This document shows positions 4,627-14,100 of a stretch of DNA of 44,912 nt, in pieces (position 1 is the first letter of the stretch; the number at the start of each line of letters is the position of its first letter). The stretch lies in the NCBI GenBank assembly GCA_001791045.1, contig MGDT01000006.1, positions 1 through 44,912 on the forward strand. The letters are read 5' to 3'. The notes under the pieces are model-generated. The model saw only the letters and a program-made list of their open reading frames with translations. It was not told where the DNA came from and did not search any database. A program made the translations under genes and the position numbers. Origin of the DNA: Candidatus Uhrbacteria bacterium RIFCSPHIGHO2_01_FULL_63_20 (GTDB taxonomy: Bacteria > Patescibacteriota > Patescibacteriia > UBA9934 > GWF2-40-263).

Positions 4627-5817
4627 ATGAGCAAAACTAAGACAACTATAGGGGTGTCATCCCGACAAGGCGGAAACAGCGGGCTTTCTGATGCGAAAAA
4701 GGCCAAACAAGATGAGTTTTACACCCAGCTATCCGATATCGAGAATGAGCTGAAATGGTACAAAGAACAACTGAGAGGCAAGGTGGTTTTTTGCAATTGC
4801 GACGACCCTTTTGAGAGTAATTTTTTCAAATATTTCGCTCTCAATTTCAACGCACTAGGTCTCAAGAAACTTATCGCGACCAGTTATGTGCCATCGGCAA
4901 TCGCTGGCAAGCAGTTGCCGCTAGTAGAAATTGAAGGACTAAAGCCAGACGGCAAAGAGCCATTCAAAATCGAGATCAATGCTGTACCGGATGCGAACGG
5001 TGATGGGGCAACGGATCTCGCTGACGTGGAGTATCTCTTGCGGCATGAGGCGAACATTGCAACTCCGCTCAAGGGTGATGGGGATTTCCGGAGTGCCGAA
5101 TGTGTCGAGCTGTTGAAACAGGTCGACATTGTATGTACGAACCCGCCGTTTTCTCTGTTTCGTGAGTTTGTGGCACAGCTCATCGAGTACGAGAAAAAGT
5201 TTTTAGTCATTGGAAATCAAAACGCGATAACGTACAAGGATGTTTTTAATTTGATTAAGGAAAATAAACTTTGGCTCGGCGTTGATAACGGAGGGACGAA
5301 GTGGTTCCGTGTACCGGATGGCTACGATATTCAAACAGAGTCGCGAAAGAAAATAGTCGACGGTGTGAAATATTTTAGTTTTGGAAGCATCATGTGGTAC
5401 ACAAATCTTGATAACCCCCGTCGTCACGAGAACATTCCTATATACGCGACCTACACCCCTGAGAAGTATCCGAAGTACGATAACTACGACGCAATCGAGG
5501 TGAATAGGGTGTCGGAAATTCCGGCAGACCATGCAGGTGCAATGGGTGTCCCCATTACGTTCCTCGACAAGTATAATCCCGACCAGTTCGAGATTTTGGG
5601 GATAACGAAAACATGGTTCGGTGGAGCAAACAAGGTCTATCCGAATCAAACACAAGTAAGCAAAGACGGAACGAATAGCACCGTTTCAAAGCTCAATGAT
5701 GGCGCCACATTAAAAATAAAAAGTCCGCCGAGCGGTGAGACTTACTATATCGTTGACGGAGAATATTACATACAGCTCTACGCAAGAATTATTGTCAGAC
5801 GAAAAGACAAAATATGA
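4627..5817 (+). CDS. EcoRI-type adenine-specific DNA methyltransferase
   Basis: The protein has 396 residues. Its overall layout matches the EcoRI methylase family (N6-adenine). The N-terminus carries KAKQDEFYTQLSDIENEL, the family's opening motif. FCNCDDPFESNFFKYF lies near residues 58-73, and the catalytic motif IV is NPPF in VDIVCTNPPFSLFREF (near residue 173). FLVIGNQNAITYKDVF and the long C-terminal part also fit. It transfers a methyl group from SAM to adenine in a DNA target. The stop overlaps the start of the DUF262-HNH gene (ATGA at 5814), so the two are translationally coupled, which suggests a restriction-modification pair. There is no good Shine-Dalgarno. Base composition is clearly more AT-rich than flanking core genes, a sign of transfer. 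Target specificity cannot be read from the sequence. Confidence 0.9.
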   Translation: MSKTKTTIGVSSRQGGNSGLSDAKKAKQDEFYTQLSDIENELKWYKEQLRGKVVFCNCDDPFESNFFKYFALNFNALGLKKLIATSYVPSAIAGKQLPLVEIEGLKPDGKEPFKIEINAVPDANGDGATDLADVEYLLRHEANIATPLKGDGDFRSAECVELLKQVDIVCTNPPFSLFREFVAQLIEYEKKFLVIGNQNAITYKDVFNLIKENKLWLGVDNGGTKWFRVPDGYDIQTESRKKIVDGVKYFSFGSIMWYTNLDNPRRHENIPIYATYTPEKYPKYDNYDAIEVNRVSEIPADHAGAMGVPITFLDKYNPDQFEILGITKTWFGGANKVYPNQTQVSKDGTNSTVSKLNDGATLKIKSPPSGETYYIVDGEYYIQLYARIIVRRKDKI

Positions 5818-6923
5818 AAATCGAATTGCGCAACATTAAAGTGCGTGAGGTTGTGGGCGACTACAAGGACGATGGTGAAAATGGTGTGGTCGGCTATGGT
5901 GGCAAGCTGGACATTCGTCCCGCATACCAGCGTGAGTTTATCTACAAGCCAGAACAGCGTGACCTAGTAATCCGGACTGTTCGCAAGGATTTTCCACTGA
6001 ACACGATGTATTGGGCCGTGACGGAGAGTGGGTACGAGCTTATGGACGGCCAGCAGCGCACGATTTCCGTGTGTCAGTACGTCAACGGTGATTTTGCCGT
6101 GGACTGGGATGGCCAACCGCGCGGGTTCAGCAACCTGACGCACGAAGAGCAAGAGCAGATTCTCGAATACGAGCTTTCGATTTATGTGTGCGAAGGGACG
6201 GACAAGGAAAAGTTGGACTGGTTCAAGACTATCAATATCGCTGGAGAGAGACTGACTGACCAGGAACTACGCAATGCGATCTACACTGGACCGTGGCTAA
6301 CGGACGCGAAGCGGTGGTTTTCCAAGACGGGCGCGCCTGCAGCACATACCGGTGAAAATCTAGTAAAGGGAACACCAATCCGACAAGAAATTCTGGAAAA
6401 GGCGTTGGAGTGGATCGGTGGTGGCAATGACCTGATTGCGCAGTACATGGCCGACCACCAGCATGACAAGGACGCGTCTGAACTGTGGCAGTACTATCAA
6501 GAAGTCATCGCTTGGGCGACTCGTATCTTCCCGAATCAGGACGGTGCTCGCGTAAAGCTTATGAAGGGCCTCGATTGGGGCGTCTTCTACAACGAGCATA
6601 AGAGCGACAAATTGAACGCGACAAAACTTGAACAGCAGATTGTGGAACTAATCGATGATGATGATGTCGAAAGCAAGCGCGGGATCTACGAATATCTGCT
6701 GACGGGTGACGAGCGGACCTTGAGCTTGCGTGCCTTCGACGATAAGACTAAGCAAAAGAAATATCAGCAGCAGAAGGGGGTGTGCCCTGTGTGCAAGAAA
6801 AAATTCGAATACAATGAGATGGAAGCCGACCACATCATGCCGTGGAGCAAGGGGGGCAAGACAGTAATTGATAATTGCCAAATGCTGTGCGGGCAGGACA
6901 ATCGGATGAAATCGGGAAAGTAA
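5814..6923 (+). CDS. DUF262 and HNH endonuclease protein (putative restriction partner)
   Basis: The protein has 369 residues. The N-terminal DUF262 (ParB/Srx-like fold) has PAYQREFIYKPEQRD and the characteristic DGQQRT (near residue 77, YELMDGQQRTISV). The C-terminus is a zinc-finger-like HNH: CPVCKKKFEY (near residue 323), then ADHIMPWSKGGKTVIDNCQMLC with the DH, the N, and a closing N-x2-K. DUF262-HNH proteins include GmrSD/BrxU/SspE-type nucleases that cut foreign or modified DNA, sometimes with NTP hydrolysis through the DGQQR motif. The ATGA overlap with the methylase argues that this is its cognate nuclease. Cleavage and site specificity are inference. Confidence 0.85.
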   Translation: MKIELRNIKVREVVGDYKDDGENGVVGYGGKLDIRPAYQREFIYKPEQRDLVIRTVRKDFPLNTMYWAVTESGYELMDGQQRTISVCQYVNGDFAVDWDGQPRGFSNLTHEEQEQILEYELSIYVCEGTDKEKLDWFKTINIAGERLTDQELRNAIYTGPWLTDAKRWFSKTGAPAAHTGENLVKGTPIRQEILEKALEWIGGGNDLIAQYMADHQHDKDASELWQYYQEVIAWATRIFPNQDGARVKLMKGLDWGVFYNEHKSDKLNATKLEQQIVELIDDDDVESKRGIYEYLLTGDERTLSLRAFDDKTKQKKYQQQKGVCPVCKKKFEYNEMEADHIMPWSKGGKTVIDNCQMLCGQDNRMKSGK

Positions 6924-7025
6924 TTCGAGACACTTTTCGGCAGATATTATTTGTTTGGTCTAATCAGGCAGCGCTCATCAGATAGACACCCTGTTGCAAT
7001 TCTGTGGAATTAGGTGGGTGACAGT

Positions 7026-10000
7026 ATGAAGGATTTGAATGAGGATGAGGTCGGTTATTCAGTAAACGTTAGTCCAAATCAATCCAGACGGGACGAGATT
7101 TGTGATTTCATGGATGCGTTTAACGACGTAGAAAAATTTTGTCAAAGAACTAAGCCATCAACACTTCTGAAAGGCGGTTGGGCCGCAATGCAGAAAGGGT
7201 TTCGGATTCAAAATCCAGACTGGATGGCTCAATCCGCACATTCGTTTAGAGAAATTCACTACCAGTACATTGATTCAAAATCCAATTTTTCGTTCCTTAA
7301 GCGGATCACTATCCCGATATTAGTTCGGTTGTTTAAATATGAACCCGGAGACCTTACTAAGGGCAGGGTTGATAGGATTAGTGACTCTTTGAAGACATAT
7401 GTCGCTGACGAAGCCAGACGACAAAACCTCGCAAAACTAATCAATAAAATTCATTTAGCTTTCTCCAACATTTCGCACCATTTTAAAAAAACAAATAGCT
7501 TAAAGCAGACAATAAAGACCCTGACTGAATTAAACATTTCTCAAAAAAGTACAAATTCGGTTGAAGATATAAGTTACGAGCAGATAGTAGATCGATTTGA
7601 AGGATTTTTGTTGGACATAAAACCGCGTTCAATTAAGTCTCACCAAATTATTGATCAATTAATTTCAAGCAAAAACCTGGATGAAAACAAGGTCAAAGCC
7701 ATCTGTTTTTCTGGAGGCAGTTTAGACTCCAGACTGTACTTTTTTTCCAAAATCGATGAATCGTATTTAGCCTGGGTCTGGGAGAAGGGGTTCTTGAGTG
7801 CGATAAATTCGCCAGCGAAGGATTCAACGCGATACTCCTACACTCTTCCAGAGCTTGGTTATCTTGTACGAGTTGCTGAAAAATCACCCGAGCTTGTTGG
7901 AAAAATACTTCTATCCACACGCATCTCAGAAGAGAATTTTAACCCGGAAGTAGTAGATCGATTCGTTTGGATAATAGGTCAACTACCGGCTTCTCAAATC
8001 AAGAAGATTCTTCCAAAAGTATTGGAGGAGAATTGGGTTAAACTAATGTCGGTGTTTTCACGGTCTGCCTACGAATATAAGAAGGCAGTTGAGACCTTGT
8101 TAGCACAAAAAGATTTTGATTCTCTTTTAGTTTTGGCCCAGATTCTTTTGGCCATACGCGAACACGGAAGTTTCAATCCTTCCGGAGCTTTTACGGACAA
8201 CGATCTTTTTTACTTCAAAGATATTTCGGAGTCAGAGATTTTTGAGGCAATTCTTGATAACGATAATAATCGCACTGAAGAATCACTAAGTGTCTTTACA
8301 GATATTCTTAGAAAAATTGTCAGCTTGGAGAATCCTGAAAAGAGTGAAGCCTTCTCTTTCTCAGAACCGTTTCATCTTCGGGACACTGACCTTTTTACGC
8401 TCGAATTAAGTCAGGTTCGAGCAGGACATTCTCGTGAAGATATCAAAAGTCTACTTGCGGTTATTAAAAAATTGATCGAAAAGCTATTAACGCAATCATG
8501 CGGGAACGAACCAGAAGCGAGGCGACTATATCTCCGCTACATCAACCATCTTCCAGATAGCCATACTCTTTGGCGATTGAAGTTATTTGCGCTTACGCGC
8601 TGCCCCGAACACGTCAAGGACGAACTAAAAAAAGCGCTTTTTAGGGTGTTTAATGTCGGAGAGCAATACTTTGAGATTGATGGTGGTGCCGAATATCACC
8701 ACACGATCGTTATATGCTTCGGTGTTCTAGACCCGATCATACAGCGAGAATATGTTTCAAGTCTCTTCACTTACTACGGAGTCACACTGACGGACAAGGA
8801 TATAGAAAAGAGGCGGAAGCGTGACGGGCTCGAGATCCTTGATTATATCTCCAATCACTTAACTGACGACGAAAAATTACGTGCCAAAATTATCTTCGGT
8901 AAAGTTCCTGTTGCCGGACGACATGTGCCTCACGCTTCAATAGAAATGGGCAGAGGAGGAGTGGTTCAACCTAAATCCCATGTTAGCCCCGCCGATTTTT
9001 CGATTGAAGAAATTATCAGTCACCTTAAATCTGATTGGCGGCCAGAGACTTTGAATGCTCAGTTTGAGCATGATGACTTCTTATCTCCACGTGGCGCGGA
9101 AGGCCTGGGGGATGCGTTAAAATTGGACTTCCGAGCTCGCATGGACGCGTATTTCGCGTTTCTTAGTGAGTTTTTTGATCGCGACACGATTCATTCCTGC
9201 TATCTCTATTCTTTACTAAGAGAAATTGACGAGATGCTCAGGAATAGACAGACACTCACCGATGAACAGAACTCAGCCTTATTGACACTTTTTGAACTGG
9301 TTCGCGTGTCGGGAGAGCAAAAGACTTTTGAAAGGGTGGGGGATCGATCTTGGCTTGCTGACTGGATAACCGTTCACAAAATCACGGCCGATATTCTGCT
9401 TGGGATTCTTACCGCCACGGGAGACTCGCTGTGGTTTAAGAACAACAGAGAAGAGATACTAAAGTTGATCGGTTACTTACTCTCAATTGAAAGCAGTCCG
9501 TCACCAGAAGAGGATGATCCAAAATTCGGTGGCCCGTATCACGTTGCTATCAACTCAGTTCGAGGACAGGCTTATATCGCATTCGCGCAATTTGCGTGCA
9601 ATGATGGGAAAGTACTTGCCCCTGATGTAAAAAAACTTTTTGAAAAAATACTGAGCTCGGATTCTTCTAACCCGGTTAGATTTTTGATCGGGCACCATTT
9701 GGGCATTTTTTACTTTAGAGACAAGAGTTACATTCAAAAACTTTTACCTAATATTTTTCCAAATGCAGATATCACAAAAGAAAAACTGTTTTTCGCTTCC
9801 TGGGAGGGCTATCTTGCCAATAAGCTTTATGGCGAGCTTTTCGTGACATTGCGAGATTATTATCAGTATGCAATAGCGCTGAACCCCGATTCGTATCCAG
9901 ACAGGGAATATTTTAAGGGTCTTGATGAGACATTGGCCGCACACCTTGCTCTCGAATACTCCCATTTCGATTTTTCAATTAACGATCTGCTCTTCACTTT

Positions 10001-10583
10001 ATTTTGGAGTACTCCGAATGACACACGTCAATACGAATTCGTGTCGTTTATTGGGCGCAGTTGTCTAACTCGTGATCAGGCTGGCGATAAATGGCTGGAG
10101 GACAATCATGTTAGCAAGGAAAAGCTTATGAAGTTCTGGGACTGGCTTTTATCGACGGATTTGCCAATTACCCCAAAGGCTTTTTCTGGTTTCGGTTTCT
10201 GGATCAATCCAGACAAGGAAATTATCGATGAAAAGTTTCTTGTTAAAAATCTTGCTGCCAGTCTGGAAAAATCTAAGGGCGCACTTGACTGGGATTATGG
10301 TTTGATGCAGAGGATTCGGGTTTTTGCAGAGATTGATCCGGTAAACACCTTGGGCGTGATCCGTAATTTATTGTTGCTAGATGGCGAGCTTAATCCAAAT
10401 CGACGCGCGTATTTCGGGGCAGACAATGAAATTAAGGAGGCTCTGTCTATCATCTATAAGGTTTCACCTCTTAAACCCAAAGTGGAAGAATTGATTAGTA
10501 CGCTGATTGAGAAAGGCAGTAGCATGTTCTGGAGCCTCAAAGATGTTCTTACATTAGGAGGAGGGACCACAGGCAAATATTAA
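7026..10583 (+). CDS. Large (1185 aa) predicted helical protein of unknown function in defence-like context
   Basis: The start is the ATG at 7026, preceded by AGGTGG at 7011-7016; a GTG at 7014 in the same frame is possible. The protein is 1185 residues, soluble, and looks mostly alpha-helical, with long Leu/Lys/Glu-rich segments and no signal peptide or membrane segments. I found no Walker A P-loop, HNH, TIR, SIR2 or PD-(D/E)XK signature. The last third (for example AINSVRGQAYIAFAQFA, RFLIGHHLGIFYFRDKSY, SWEGYLANKLYGEL) reminds me of helical sensor tails of large STAND/SIR2-linked defence proteins, but that is memory of style, not a match. It is the most AT-rich gene in the window and lies 102 bases after the DUF262-HNH gene. 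A TATTAT at about 6945 could give it its own promoter. Confidence 0.8.
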   Translation: MKDLNEDEVGYSVNVSPNQSRRDEICDFMDAFNDVEKFCQRTKPSTLLKGGWAAMQKGFRIQNPDWMAQSAHSFREIHYQYIDSKSNFSFLKRITIPILVRLFKYEPGDLTKGRVDRISDSLKTYVADEARRQNLAKLINKIHLAFSNISHHFKKTNSLKQTIKTLTELNISQKSTNSVEDISYEQIVDRFEGFLLDIKPRSIKSHQIIDQLISSKNLDENKVKAICFSGGSLDSRLYFFSKIDESYLAWVWEKGFLSAINSPAKDSTRYSYTLPELGYLVRVAEKSPELVGKILLSTRISEENFNPEVVDRFVWIIGQLPASQIKKILPKVLEENWVKLMSVFSRSAYEYKKAVETLLAQKDFDSLLVLAQILLAIREHGSFNPSGAFTDNDLFYFKDISESEIFEAILDNDNNRTEESLSVFTDILRKIVSLENPEKSEAFSFSEPFHLRDTDLFTLELSQVRAGHSREDIKSLLAVIKKLIEKLLTQSCGNEPEARRLYLRYINHLPDSHTLWRLKLFALTRCPEHVKDELKKALFRVFNVGEQYFEIDGGAEYHHTIVICFGVLDPIIQREYVSSLFTYYGVTLTDKDIEKRRKRDGLEILDYISNHLTDDEKLRAKIIFGKVPVAGRHVPHASIEMGRGGVVQPKSHVSPADFSIEEIISHLKSDWRPETLNAQFEHDDFLSPRGAEGLGDALKLDFRARMDAYFAFLSEFFDRDTIHSCYLYSLLREIDEMLRNRQTLTDEQNSALLTLFELVRVSGEQKTFERVGDRSWLADWITVHKITADILLGILTATGDSLWFKNNREEILKLIGYLLSIESSPSPEEDDPKFGGPYHVAINSVRGQAYIAFAQFACNDGKVLAPDVKKLFEKILSSDSSNPVRFLIGHHLGIFYFRDKSYIQKLLPNIFPNADITKEKLFFASWEGYLANKLYGELFVTLRDYYQYAIALNPDSYPDREYFKGLDETLAAHLALEYSHFDFSINDLLFTLFWSTPNDTRQYEFVSFIGRSCLTRDQAGDKWLEDNHVSKEKLMKFWDWLLSTDLPITPKAFSGFGFWINPDKEIIDEKFLVKNLAASLEKSKGALDWDYGLMQRIRVFAEIDPVNTLGVIRNLLLLDGELNPNRRAYFGADNEIKEALSIIYKVSPLKPKVEELISTLIEKGSSMFWSLKDVLTLGGGTTGKY

Positions 10584-11343: not shown

Positions 11344-11359
11344 CAATTCGAACTGAAAA

Positions 11360-11389
11360 GCAACGTGCAAAAAAAGCACATTGCTTTTT
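11360..11389. terminator. Bidirectional terminator at the 3' end of the doc toxin gene
   Basis: GCAACGTGC (11360-11368) pairs with GCACATTGC (11376-11384), one mismatch, across seven A. TTTTT follows on the + strand and TTTT on the - strand. It ends the leftward toxin transcript. A related GTGC-AAAAAA-TGCAC hairpin lies at about 12780-12805. Confidence 0.65.
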
Positions 11390-11394
11390 GCAGC

Positions 11395-11826
11395 CTACGC
11401 CCTTGGCTGGTCAATCAGCCGCGTTTCGATCCAGATATTCAGCTCATGGAGGACCGCATCCTTAACAGTCGCGGACGACTCGGCAATCGTGACCGCTTTT
11501 TGGACGACTTCGTCCTGCGGGCAGGAGATCCATTTCTTGTTCATCGCTAAAAACACCAGAAGCGAAGTCGTGGAGATTCGCTTGTTCCCGTTGGCGAAGG
11601 CATGCCCCTTGATCATGCTGTAATACAAGATGGCCGCCTTCGAGATGAGCATCGGGTACAATTCCTGCCCGCCGTACGTCTGCTGCGGGTTTCCGAGGAT
11701 GGATTCGAGCTTGCGCGGGTCGTGTTCCTCGAACGGCGGGATCGGTTCCTCGTATTTATCGAAAAGTGCCACGGCGAGCGCGTGGCACATTTCACGCATC
11801 ATTTGTATGTCGAGATAACAAATCAC
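11395..11826 (-). CDS. Doc/Fic-family toxin
   Basis: The protein has 143 residues. The Doc-type catalytic loop HAFANGNKR is clear (near residue 75, in MIKGHAFANGNKRIST). This is the Hx[FI]x[DN]GNKR form of the Fic motif, which in Doc phosphorylates EF-Tu and in other members transfers nucleotides. ILYYSMIKGHAF and TSLLVFLAMNK also fit the 'death on curing' group. It starts with GTG at 11826 overlapping the stop of the upstream small gene (GTGA), as in toxin-antitoxin pairs. The target is not visible in the sequence. Confidence 0.85.
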   Translation of the reverse strand: MICYLDIQMMREMCHALAVALFDKYEEPIPPFEEHDPRKLESILGNPQQTYGGQELYPMLISKAAILYYSMIKGHAFANGNKRISTTSLLVFLAMNKKWISCPQDEVVQKAVTIAESSATVKDAVLHELNIWIETRLIDQPRA

Positions 11827-12729: not shown

Positions 12730-12864
12730 CCATGGGACAACGCGTGTATGATTGGATGGCTGTGAAATTGAAGAAAAGCACTGTGCAAAAAATGCACTTT
12801 GCAAATCCTACGACGCCTGCAGTTGTTGCAAAAGATGCAACAGGTCAAGACCCAGGGCAGGCCA

Positions 12865-12916
12865 GTTGACATTAGTCTTGATAATGTCAACAGAATAGTC
12901 TATAATGTTGACATTA
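12865..12916 (+). promoter_or_regulatory. Promoter with three operator copies before the Fic gene
   Basis: TTGATA (12878-12883) and TATAAT (12901-12906) are 17 bases apart. The 10-mer GTTGACATTA occurs at 12865-12874 and 12907-12916, and inverted (TAATGTCAAC) at 12882-12891. One copy covers the -35 and another the start site, two bases before the ATG, so a bound repressor would block transcription. The short leader leaves no room for a Shine-Dalgarno. Confidence 0.8.
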
Positions 12917-12918
12917 CT

Positions 12919-14100
12919 ATGGGTAACATCAACCAAGCGAAAATCGGCAGATATATCAAGCAAAAAGAAGGGTACAAGACCTTTACCCCCTTTGCGTTTC
13001 CGCCAAAAGGCGGTTTTAAAATCAGTCCGAGACTCTACAAGAAGCACGAAGAAGCGATACGCCTGGTTGGCAAGCTGGATGGCATCACCAGGCTGTTGCC
13101 GGACAAGGATTTTTTCCTGCTGATGTTCATAAAAAAGGACGCTGCCTATTCGAGCCAGATCGAGGGCACAAAGGCGACCCTTCAGGATGCGGTGGCTGCT
13201 CCGGTCACGGAAGAAAAGGCCAGACTTCATCCAGACGTAGATGATATCGTCCATTATGTCGATGCCGTGAATTACGGGATCCAAAGGGCCAAGACATTGC
13301 CGATTTCCCTGCGATTCATCAAGGAGCTCCATGAACGGCTCATAAAAGGCGCACGTTCGACGCATCATGCCTACCCAGGCGAGTTTCGTCGTTCGCAAAA
13401 CTGGATCGGCGGAAGATCCCCAGAGGATGCCTCGTTCGTTCCCCCGGCACCGCATGACATGAACGTAGCTTTGGGCGACTTGGAAAAATTTGTCCATGCC
13501 GACGACGACTTTCCTTCCTTGGTCAAGGCCGGCCTTCTTCATGCGCAGTTCGAGACCATCCACCCGTTCGCCGACGGGAATGGCCGAACGGGCCGCATGC
13601 TTATCGCCATGTATATCCACCATGCGCAGCTGTTGGAATTGCCGGTGTTGTACTTGTCGAGTTACTTCAAAAAATATCAGAAGCTGTATTACCAGAAACT
13701 GCAGGGTTATCATGATGAAGACGCGCATATAGATGGCTGGCTTCAGTTTTTCCTTGAGGGAGTCGCGGAAATCGCCAACGCTTCTATAGAAACGTGCACG
13801 AAGATTACGGCCCTGCGCGACCGTGACTTCGAGAAGATGCAAAAACTCGGGAAGAAATCCGCCGCGTCCACATTGGAAATCATCCGTAAGCTGTACGGAC
13901 AGCCGATCGTCGGCGTCGCCGAAATTGCAAAGTGGACAGGCTTCAGTCCACAAGGTGCCTATAACGTGATTGAACGGCTCGAAAAATTGAAAATCCTTGA
14001 ACCCCTCGGCGATGCCGCATATGGGCAAAAATACATTTATGCTGACTACTATGAAATATTCGATGACACGTTCAGAGCGACAAAGGCGCACAGAAAATGA
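12919..14100 (+). CDS. Fic-family adenylyltransferase with inhibitory motif and winged-helix tail
   Basis: The protein has 393 residues. It opens with a Fic_N-like region. The self-inhibition motif SSQIEGT (near residue 78, class II: S/T-x3-E-G/N before the Fic core) is followed by the catalytic loop HPFADGNGRTGR (near residue 214), complete for ATP-dependent AMPylation, and a flap region SEDASFVPP-like (residues near 173). The C-terminal 80 residues hold a winged helix-turn-helix (VAEIAKWTGFSPQGAYNVIERLEKLKIL). Such Fic-wHTH proteins modify a protein target and can also bind DNA. The three operators in its own promoter point to autoregulation. The wHTH could supply that, or an unlinked repressor. 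A DUF2779 gene follows 16 bases downstream. Confidence 0.92.
   Translation: MGNINQAKIGRYIKQKEGYKTFTPFAFPPKGGFKISPRLYKKHEEAIRLVGKLDGITRLLPDKDFFLLMFIKKDAAYSSQIEGTKATLQDAVAAPVTEEKARLHPDVDDIVHYVDAVNYGIQRAKTLPISLRFIKELHERLIKGARSTHHAYPGEFRRSQNWIGGRSPEDASFVPPAPHDMNVALGDLEKFVHADDDFPSLVKAGLLHAQFETIHPFADGNGRTGRMLIAMYIHHAQLLELPVLYLSSYFKKYQKLYYQKLQGYHDEDAHIDGWLQFFLEGVAEIANASIETCTKITALRDRDFEKMQKLGKKSAASTLEIIRKLYGQPIVGVAEIAKWTGFSPQGAYNVIERLEKLKILEPLGDAAYGQKYIYADYYEIFDDTFRATKAHRK

Follow-up and report, generated by a model that had tools for sequence, protein, structure and literature searches.

The stretch of DNA that was analysed, hereafter the window, comprises 44,912 nucleotides of contig MGDT01000006.1 from Candidatus Uhrbacteria bacterium RIFCSPHIGHO2_01_FULL_63_20. 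It was found to contain a restriction-modification (RM) pair, followed by a large gene and two Fic/DOC-family genes. The features are as follows:

4627..5817, + strand: gene for an EcoRI-type adenine methyltransferase (M); PF13651, 459.8 bits; PADLOC MTase_II, E=4.7e-121.
5814..6923, + strand: gene for a DUF262 (GmrSD_N)-HNH nuclease (R); PF03235 and PF01844; PADLOC REase_II.
7012..7017, + strand: ribosome-binding-like hexamer AGGTGG, read from the sequence, 8 nt 5' of ATG 7026.
7026..10583, + strand: gene for a DSR1-C-type protein of 1185 aa, identified from the open frame, a PADLOC Dsr1 match and a profile-profile link.
7026..7625, + strand: N-terminal domain of this protein, residues ~1-200, a candidate effector or adaptor; delimited from alignments, separate open reading frames in relatives and the helical model of the L025 domain.
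7626..10580, + strand: predicted HEAT-like alpha-solenoid, residues ~201-1185, a candidate sensor or scaffold; from homology to DSR1 model positions ~270-1220 and from AlphaFold2.
11395-11826, - strand: small Fic/DOC-family gene in the same low-GC island.
12799-14100, + strand: SoFic-like Fic/DOC-family gene, with a near-full-length match to PADLOC SoFic.

The methylase and nuclease genes overlap by 4 bp, and the PADLOC REase_II match (456 bits) spans residues 1-369, the full length of the DUF262-HNH nuclease. Judged from their sequences, the genes at 4627-6923 are an intact type II RM pair of a methylase and its matching nuclease. The large gene begins 102 bp later on the same strand and reads without interruption from ATG 7026 to the stop at 10583, giving 1185 aa. 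The alternative in-frame start, GTG 7014, would give 1189 aa; because of the position of the AGGTGG hexamer, ATG 7026 is favoured. We take the open reading frame to be real because one of 1185 codons is not expected by chance and a comparable coding length is kept in about two dozen relatives, whether fused in a single gene or divided between two. The GC content of the large gene was 42% (GC3 0.42) in a source genome of ~64% GC (863 kb in 8 contigs, with a single copy of the family gene), and the core genes flanking the island had a GC of 61-67% and a GC3 of 0.75-0.93. A preliminary description of this DNA had reported an AT-rich reading frame of 1185 residues behind a methylase-nuclease pair, and the frame, base composition and position all agree with it. 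It had also named no motif in the protein. Single-sequence searches of Pfam, NCBIfam and PADLOC likewise gave no significant match, and the same query yielded nothing usable from PHROGs or PDB sequences.

The longest direct repeat in the low-GC island (30 nt, 87% identical, 11355-11384 and 12773-12802) brackets the small Fic gene and may mark where a small mobile unit ends. No target-site duplication was detected at the borders of the island. An operator-like, near-palindromic pair of 34-nt arms (GTTGACATTA...TAATGTCAAC) lies at 12865-12933, either within the SoFic-like gene or just ahead of its start.

Scans of genome collections, viral contigs and whole genomes from the window's own class and phylum gave about two dozen loci of the family, a sample weighted toward that class and phylum. 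The family was present in 12 of 380 class genomes, and no relatives were found in the named phages searched. About half of the relatives were split into a gene of ~190 aa followed by a gene of ~1000 aa (L003, L026, L027, L028, L032, L036, L044, and L058), and the fused form was found in the window, L025, L029, L031, L035, L045, and L059. The protein is therefore read as two modules, N (residues ~1-200) and C (residues ~201-1185). One near-identical contig was found as L002, L003, and L004 under Sulfurimonas, Candidatus Azambacteria, and Flavobacteriaceae metagenome-assembled genomes, at least two of which assignments are probably mis-binned.

By profile comparison, residues ~200-1185 were found to be homologous to the whole region behind the SIR2 domain of the anti-phage protein DSR1, which was represented by the PADLOC Dsr1 model PDLC04166 (1227 positions). 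The model matched the window gene at E=1e-9 in a search of the source genome. An hmmscan of the full window protein against PADLOC did not report the Dsr1 match, and its link to DSR1 therefore rests on the genome search and the profile-profile steps. Within the family alignment, 5 of the 12 members matched Dsr1. The matches of PDLC04166 to L061 (1e-51), L034 (1.3e-46), L062 (4.8e-43), L035 (7.4e-41), and L033 (3e-37) jointly cover model positions ~268-1219 of 1227, and in the profile-profile comparison the close family profile (A4) was aligned with the strong Dsr1 matchers (A8) over 995 columns at E=3.5e-84. Haloarchaeal relatives matched the model at 1.6e-35 (Haloferax gibbonsii, L010) and 7.3e-29; compared as a profile (A7) with the close family, they gave a probability of 100 and E=1e-39 over 772 columns. 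On the Haloferax gibbonsii plasmid (L010, 5902-18558), the ATPase with the DSR1-type C region adjoins an HmaC/DUF499 and DUF1156 system, a further RM-like neighbour of this superfamily in archaea.

The AlphaFold2 model of the window protein was an all-helical solenoid (mean pLDDT 70.7, pTM 0.44), and the nearest solved folds were CAND1, importins and the PP2A scaffold, with Z of ~11-14. The solenoid is predicted to consist of HEAT-like repeats, a class of protein for which matches in a fold search show the fold class only. The structure prediction and fold search proposed in the preliminary description gave an all-helical architecture with matches to generic HEAT proteins. DSR2 was not among the fold-search matches listed for the full model, but the two may still be kin. 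Searches of PDB sequences with the family profiles gave nothing, or chance matches only, such as coronavirus nsp8.

No SIR2 match was found in the window protein or in any of the relatives scanned. The SIR2 NADase is replaced by a helical domain of ~190 residues, which elsewhere is a separate gene directly upstream. The N module contained a near-invariant arginine (R75) in S-x-R-E-I and a conserved histidine (H151), usually in A-H-H, which in the window is followed by H152. It was accompanied by the C module in 7 of the 7 genomes with a match in a search of 362 genomes, and a scan of viral contigs with a narrower N-domain alignment returned only one already known family locus. The model of the homologous domain of L025 was a helical bundle (pLDDT 71, pTM 0.69). 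Compared by VIA-align, it gave Z 8.1 with HepT 6m6w_B (rmsd 3.6, 112 aligned) and Z 7.8 with RnlA 6y2p (rmsd 6.8, 143 aligned), tied in both cases with unrelated helical bundles; vinculin, Rsd and designed bundles stood level with these HEPN toxins at Z ~7-8.

The canonical HEPN motif Rx4-6H was absent from the N module, as no arginine lies 4-6 residues ahead of H151; R75 is 76 residues upstream, and the histidine motif of the window reads F-S-N-I-S-H-H. HEPN families that retain the histidine and lose the arginine exist (PMC3710099), and the domain is possibly HEPN-like. Three members matched PF18165 (pP_pnuc_1, 'predicted pPIWI-associating nuclease') in the same register, over profile positions ~10-44 only, with a best score of 16.7 bits (L028) that is below the curated cut-off of 26.3 bits. 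The N-domain profile did not match the N-termini of the divergent L061, L062, and Streptomyces proteins (hhalign probability 0.4); these contain a similar spacing of R-E motif and histidine, for which we do not claim homology. In L033 (7008-10505) a LexA-type helix-turn-helix (PF01726, 4e-15) precedes the N module.

The N-terminal partner was found to vary. In the place of the small gene, L030 contained a 186-aa protein that the N profile did not match, and L060 an apparently unrelated protein with membrane-helix-like segments. In the haloarchaeal relatives an ATPase occupies the N-terminal position; a P-loop NTPase domain, as a STAND/Avs-type sensor would have, was found only in these relatives and not in the window protein. 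Such exchange at the N-terminal position is typical of effector or signalling modules mounted on a shared sensor, and the N module is taken to be a candidate of this kind.

RM genes were found immediately upstream of the family gene or gene pair, on the same strand, in 15 of the 20 loci with readable neighbours (the contig-edge loci L034, L047, L050, and L062 being left out of the count). In the window these are the EcoRI-type methylase and the DUF262-HNH nuclease. L026 and L028 contained an N6_N4 methylase and a DpnII nuclease (PF04556, 273 bits), the RM type of L028 being assigned from its similarity to L026. L031 contained a RadC-fused C5 methylase with a HaeII nuclease (PF09554, 415 bits), and L029, L044, and L045 a Type III-like pair of N6_N4_Mtase and ResIII. 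A PLD-SNF2 helicase with a IIG-like methylase was found in L003, L025, L058, L059, and L060, and a Type IIG-like system in L035. L061 contained HsdR, an HsdM fragment and HsdS, called Type I from sequence inspection and a BLAST match of the HsdM fragment. In L037 a decayed methylase fragment lies upstream of a family gene that has decayed too. Eco57I was among the families of RM neighbours named by profile match. The family gene often overlaps the RM gene or lies close to it, as in L025 (4901-7963 and 7941-11438), L028, L044, and L045. No RM neighbour was found in the remaining 5 of the 20 loci (L027, L030, L032, L033, and L036). In three of the PLD-SNF2-type loci a homologous small gene of ~230-256 aa, PD-(D/E)XK-like by eye, lies downstream (L003 11220-11915, L058 11782-12540, and L060 2676-3446).

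For comparison, of 115 class genomes 69 contained PF01555 methylases and 26 contained Eco57I, generally in a few copies per genome of ~1 Mb. With so few RM methylases per genome, chance adjacency is expected well below 1%, an estimate that is no formal probability because the loci are related and genes cluster in islands. On the tree of the C module, the RM type has to change 10-12 times. In this tree, L025 (PLD-SNF2/IIG) is sister to L031 (HaeII) with an SH-aLRT of 99, and the window groups with the Type III locus L029. With six RM architectures and repeated switches between them, a single hitch-hiking event is strongly disfavoured. To judge from tree and neighbourhoods, the gene or gene pair has been exchanged among unrelated RM types and has recurrently been placed directly behind them. 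No earlier report of an association between RM systems and DSR1-type proteins was found in the literature, of which the coverage was incomplete, so one may exist.

The preliminary description had proposed a defence gene, and the homology to DSR1 and the place of 15 of 20 relatives directly behind RM genes support this. Its more specific suggestion, a composite system of methylase, DUF262-HNH nuclease and helical protein, did not hold as a fixed trio: six other RM pairings occur, and the protein is read as an add-on that RM systems exchange and not as a third subunit dedicated to this one. The neighbourhood survey that it called for found homologues to stay RM-linked in 15 of 20 loci, though not always behind DUF262-HNH or EcoRI-type genes, and no match to a housekeeping family was found.

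The reading towards which we lean, with modest confidence, is that the window protein is an RM-coupled, DSR1-type protein of second-line defence, with the solenoid as sensor and the N-terminal domain as effector. The RM system upstream would be the first line and the DSR1-type protein its backup. The solenoid would recognise a phage product or a sign of failed restriction, for example an anti-restriction protein, by analogy with DSR2. On binding, the protein would rearrange or change its oligomeric state and so free the N-terminal domain to act as an effector, most likely a HEPN-like RNase, and the growth of the infected cell would stop. We infer the sensing, the trigger, the effector chemistry and the backup role by analogy. 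DSR2 binds the phage tail tube protein through its HEAT repeats and a C-terminal domain, and its N-terminal SIR2 NADase is thereby released (PMC11263360, PMC11290490). HEPN RNases are known to accompany RM systems, and a second-line effector role analogous to that of PrrC has been proposed for them (PMC3710099). DSR1 carries an N-terminal SIR2 and is reported to block phage without cell death (PMC10952713), so suicide is not assured for the window protein.

We extend this reading only tentatively to a general RM companion, a sensor-effector family that is swapped among RM systems, detects the failure or inhibition of restriction and shuts the cell down, with a DSR1 sensor and, where SIR2 would stand, an effector not described before. 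Less likely than the main reading is an independent defence gene that clusters in islands, with the RM genes as mere neighbours and not partners. Islands would be expected to collect RM genes and DSR1-type genes alike, five loci lack RM neighbours and Fic toxin genes lie close by in the window, but in 15 of 20 loci the gene comes directly after the RM genes on their strand, with six RM types represented, which is too regular for general island clustering. We consider it improbable that the protein lacks an effector and serves the RM machinery as an accessory subunit or regulator, for example by controlling the nuclease or by protecting the host once restriction has caused damage. The tight adjacency, the HEAT solenoid as a typical scaffold, the weak resemblance of the N-domain to a pPIWI-associated protein domain (PF18165; three members, best 0.006) and the LexA-type helix-turn-helix of one member would suit such a role; however, one subunit for six unrelated RM architectures is unlikely, and the closest characterised relative, DSR1, acts against phage on its own and has an enzyme at its N-terminus. 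A housekeeping HEAT-repeat protein next to RM genes by chance, suggested by the fold search when taken alone (importin, CAND1, PP2A scaffold), is hardly credible, being already contradicted by the patchy distribution, the low GC, the DSR1 homology and the RM linkage.

Compared with known systems, the window protein shares with DSR1 (PDLC04166) the helical region of ~950 residues after SIR2, the order of a smaller N-terminal module and a long solenoid, and the defence context, whereas it has no SIR2 NADase but a helical domain of ~190 aa that is often a separate gene, and stands directly behind RM operons. DSR2 is alike by working analogy and not by demonstrated homology, with an N-terminal effector and a HEAT-type solenoid sensor; the window protein differs in having no SIR2 and no sequence match to any solved chain. 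The haloarchaeal AAA/NACHT-like ATPase proteins share the homologous C-terminal solenoid and a defence neighbourhood, and differ in the N-terminal P-loop ATPase, sometimes with membrane helices, where the small domain stands. The RM-linked HEPN effectors of the PrrC/EcoprrI type (PMC3710099) resemble the N-domain as helical, candidate second-line effectors beside an RM system with a conserved histidine, whereas the N-domain lacks the canonical Rx4-6H motif and its HEPN fold is only a candidate.

The DSR1 C-terminal region thus serves as a module that is combined with no fewer than three kinds of N-terminus, namely SIR2, the ATPase and the window-type domain, and annotation pipelines that require SIR2 therefore miss such proteins. 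PrrC and RloC are known backup effectors, each bound to a single RM type. That one family stands behind Type I, II, IIG, and III systems points to a signal common to all of them that the sensor reads, or to a portable second line. The finding also gives the Patescibacteria, a poorly annotated group, a further candidate defence system. In the viral collections, relatives adjoin terminase-like and serine-recombinase-like genes (L025 3-1340; L045 17431-18975 and 1251-2591; L044 13096-14418), and from these neighbours the cassette of RM and DSR1-type genes seems to travel on prophage-like elements.
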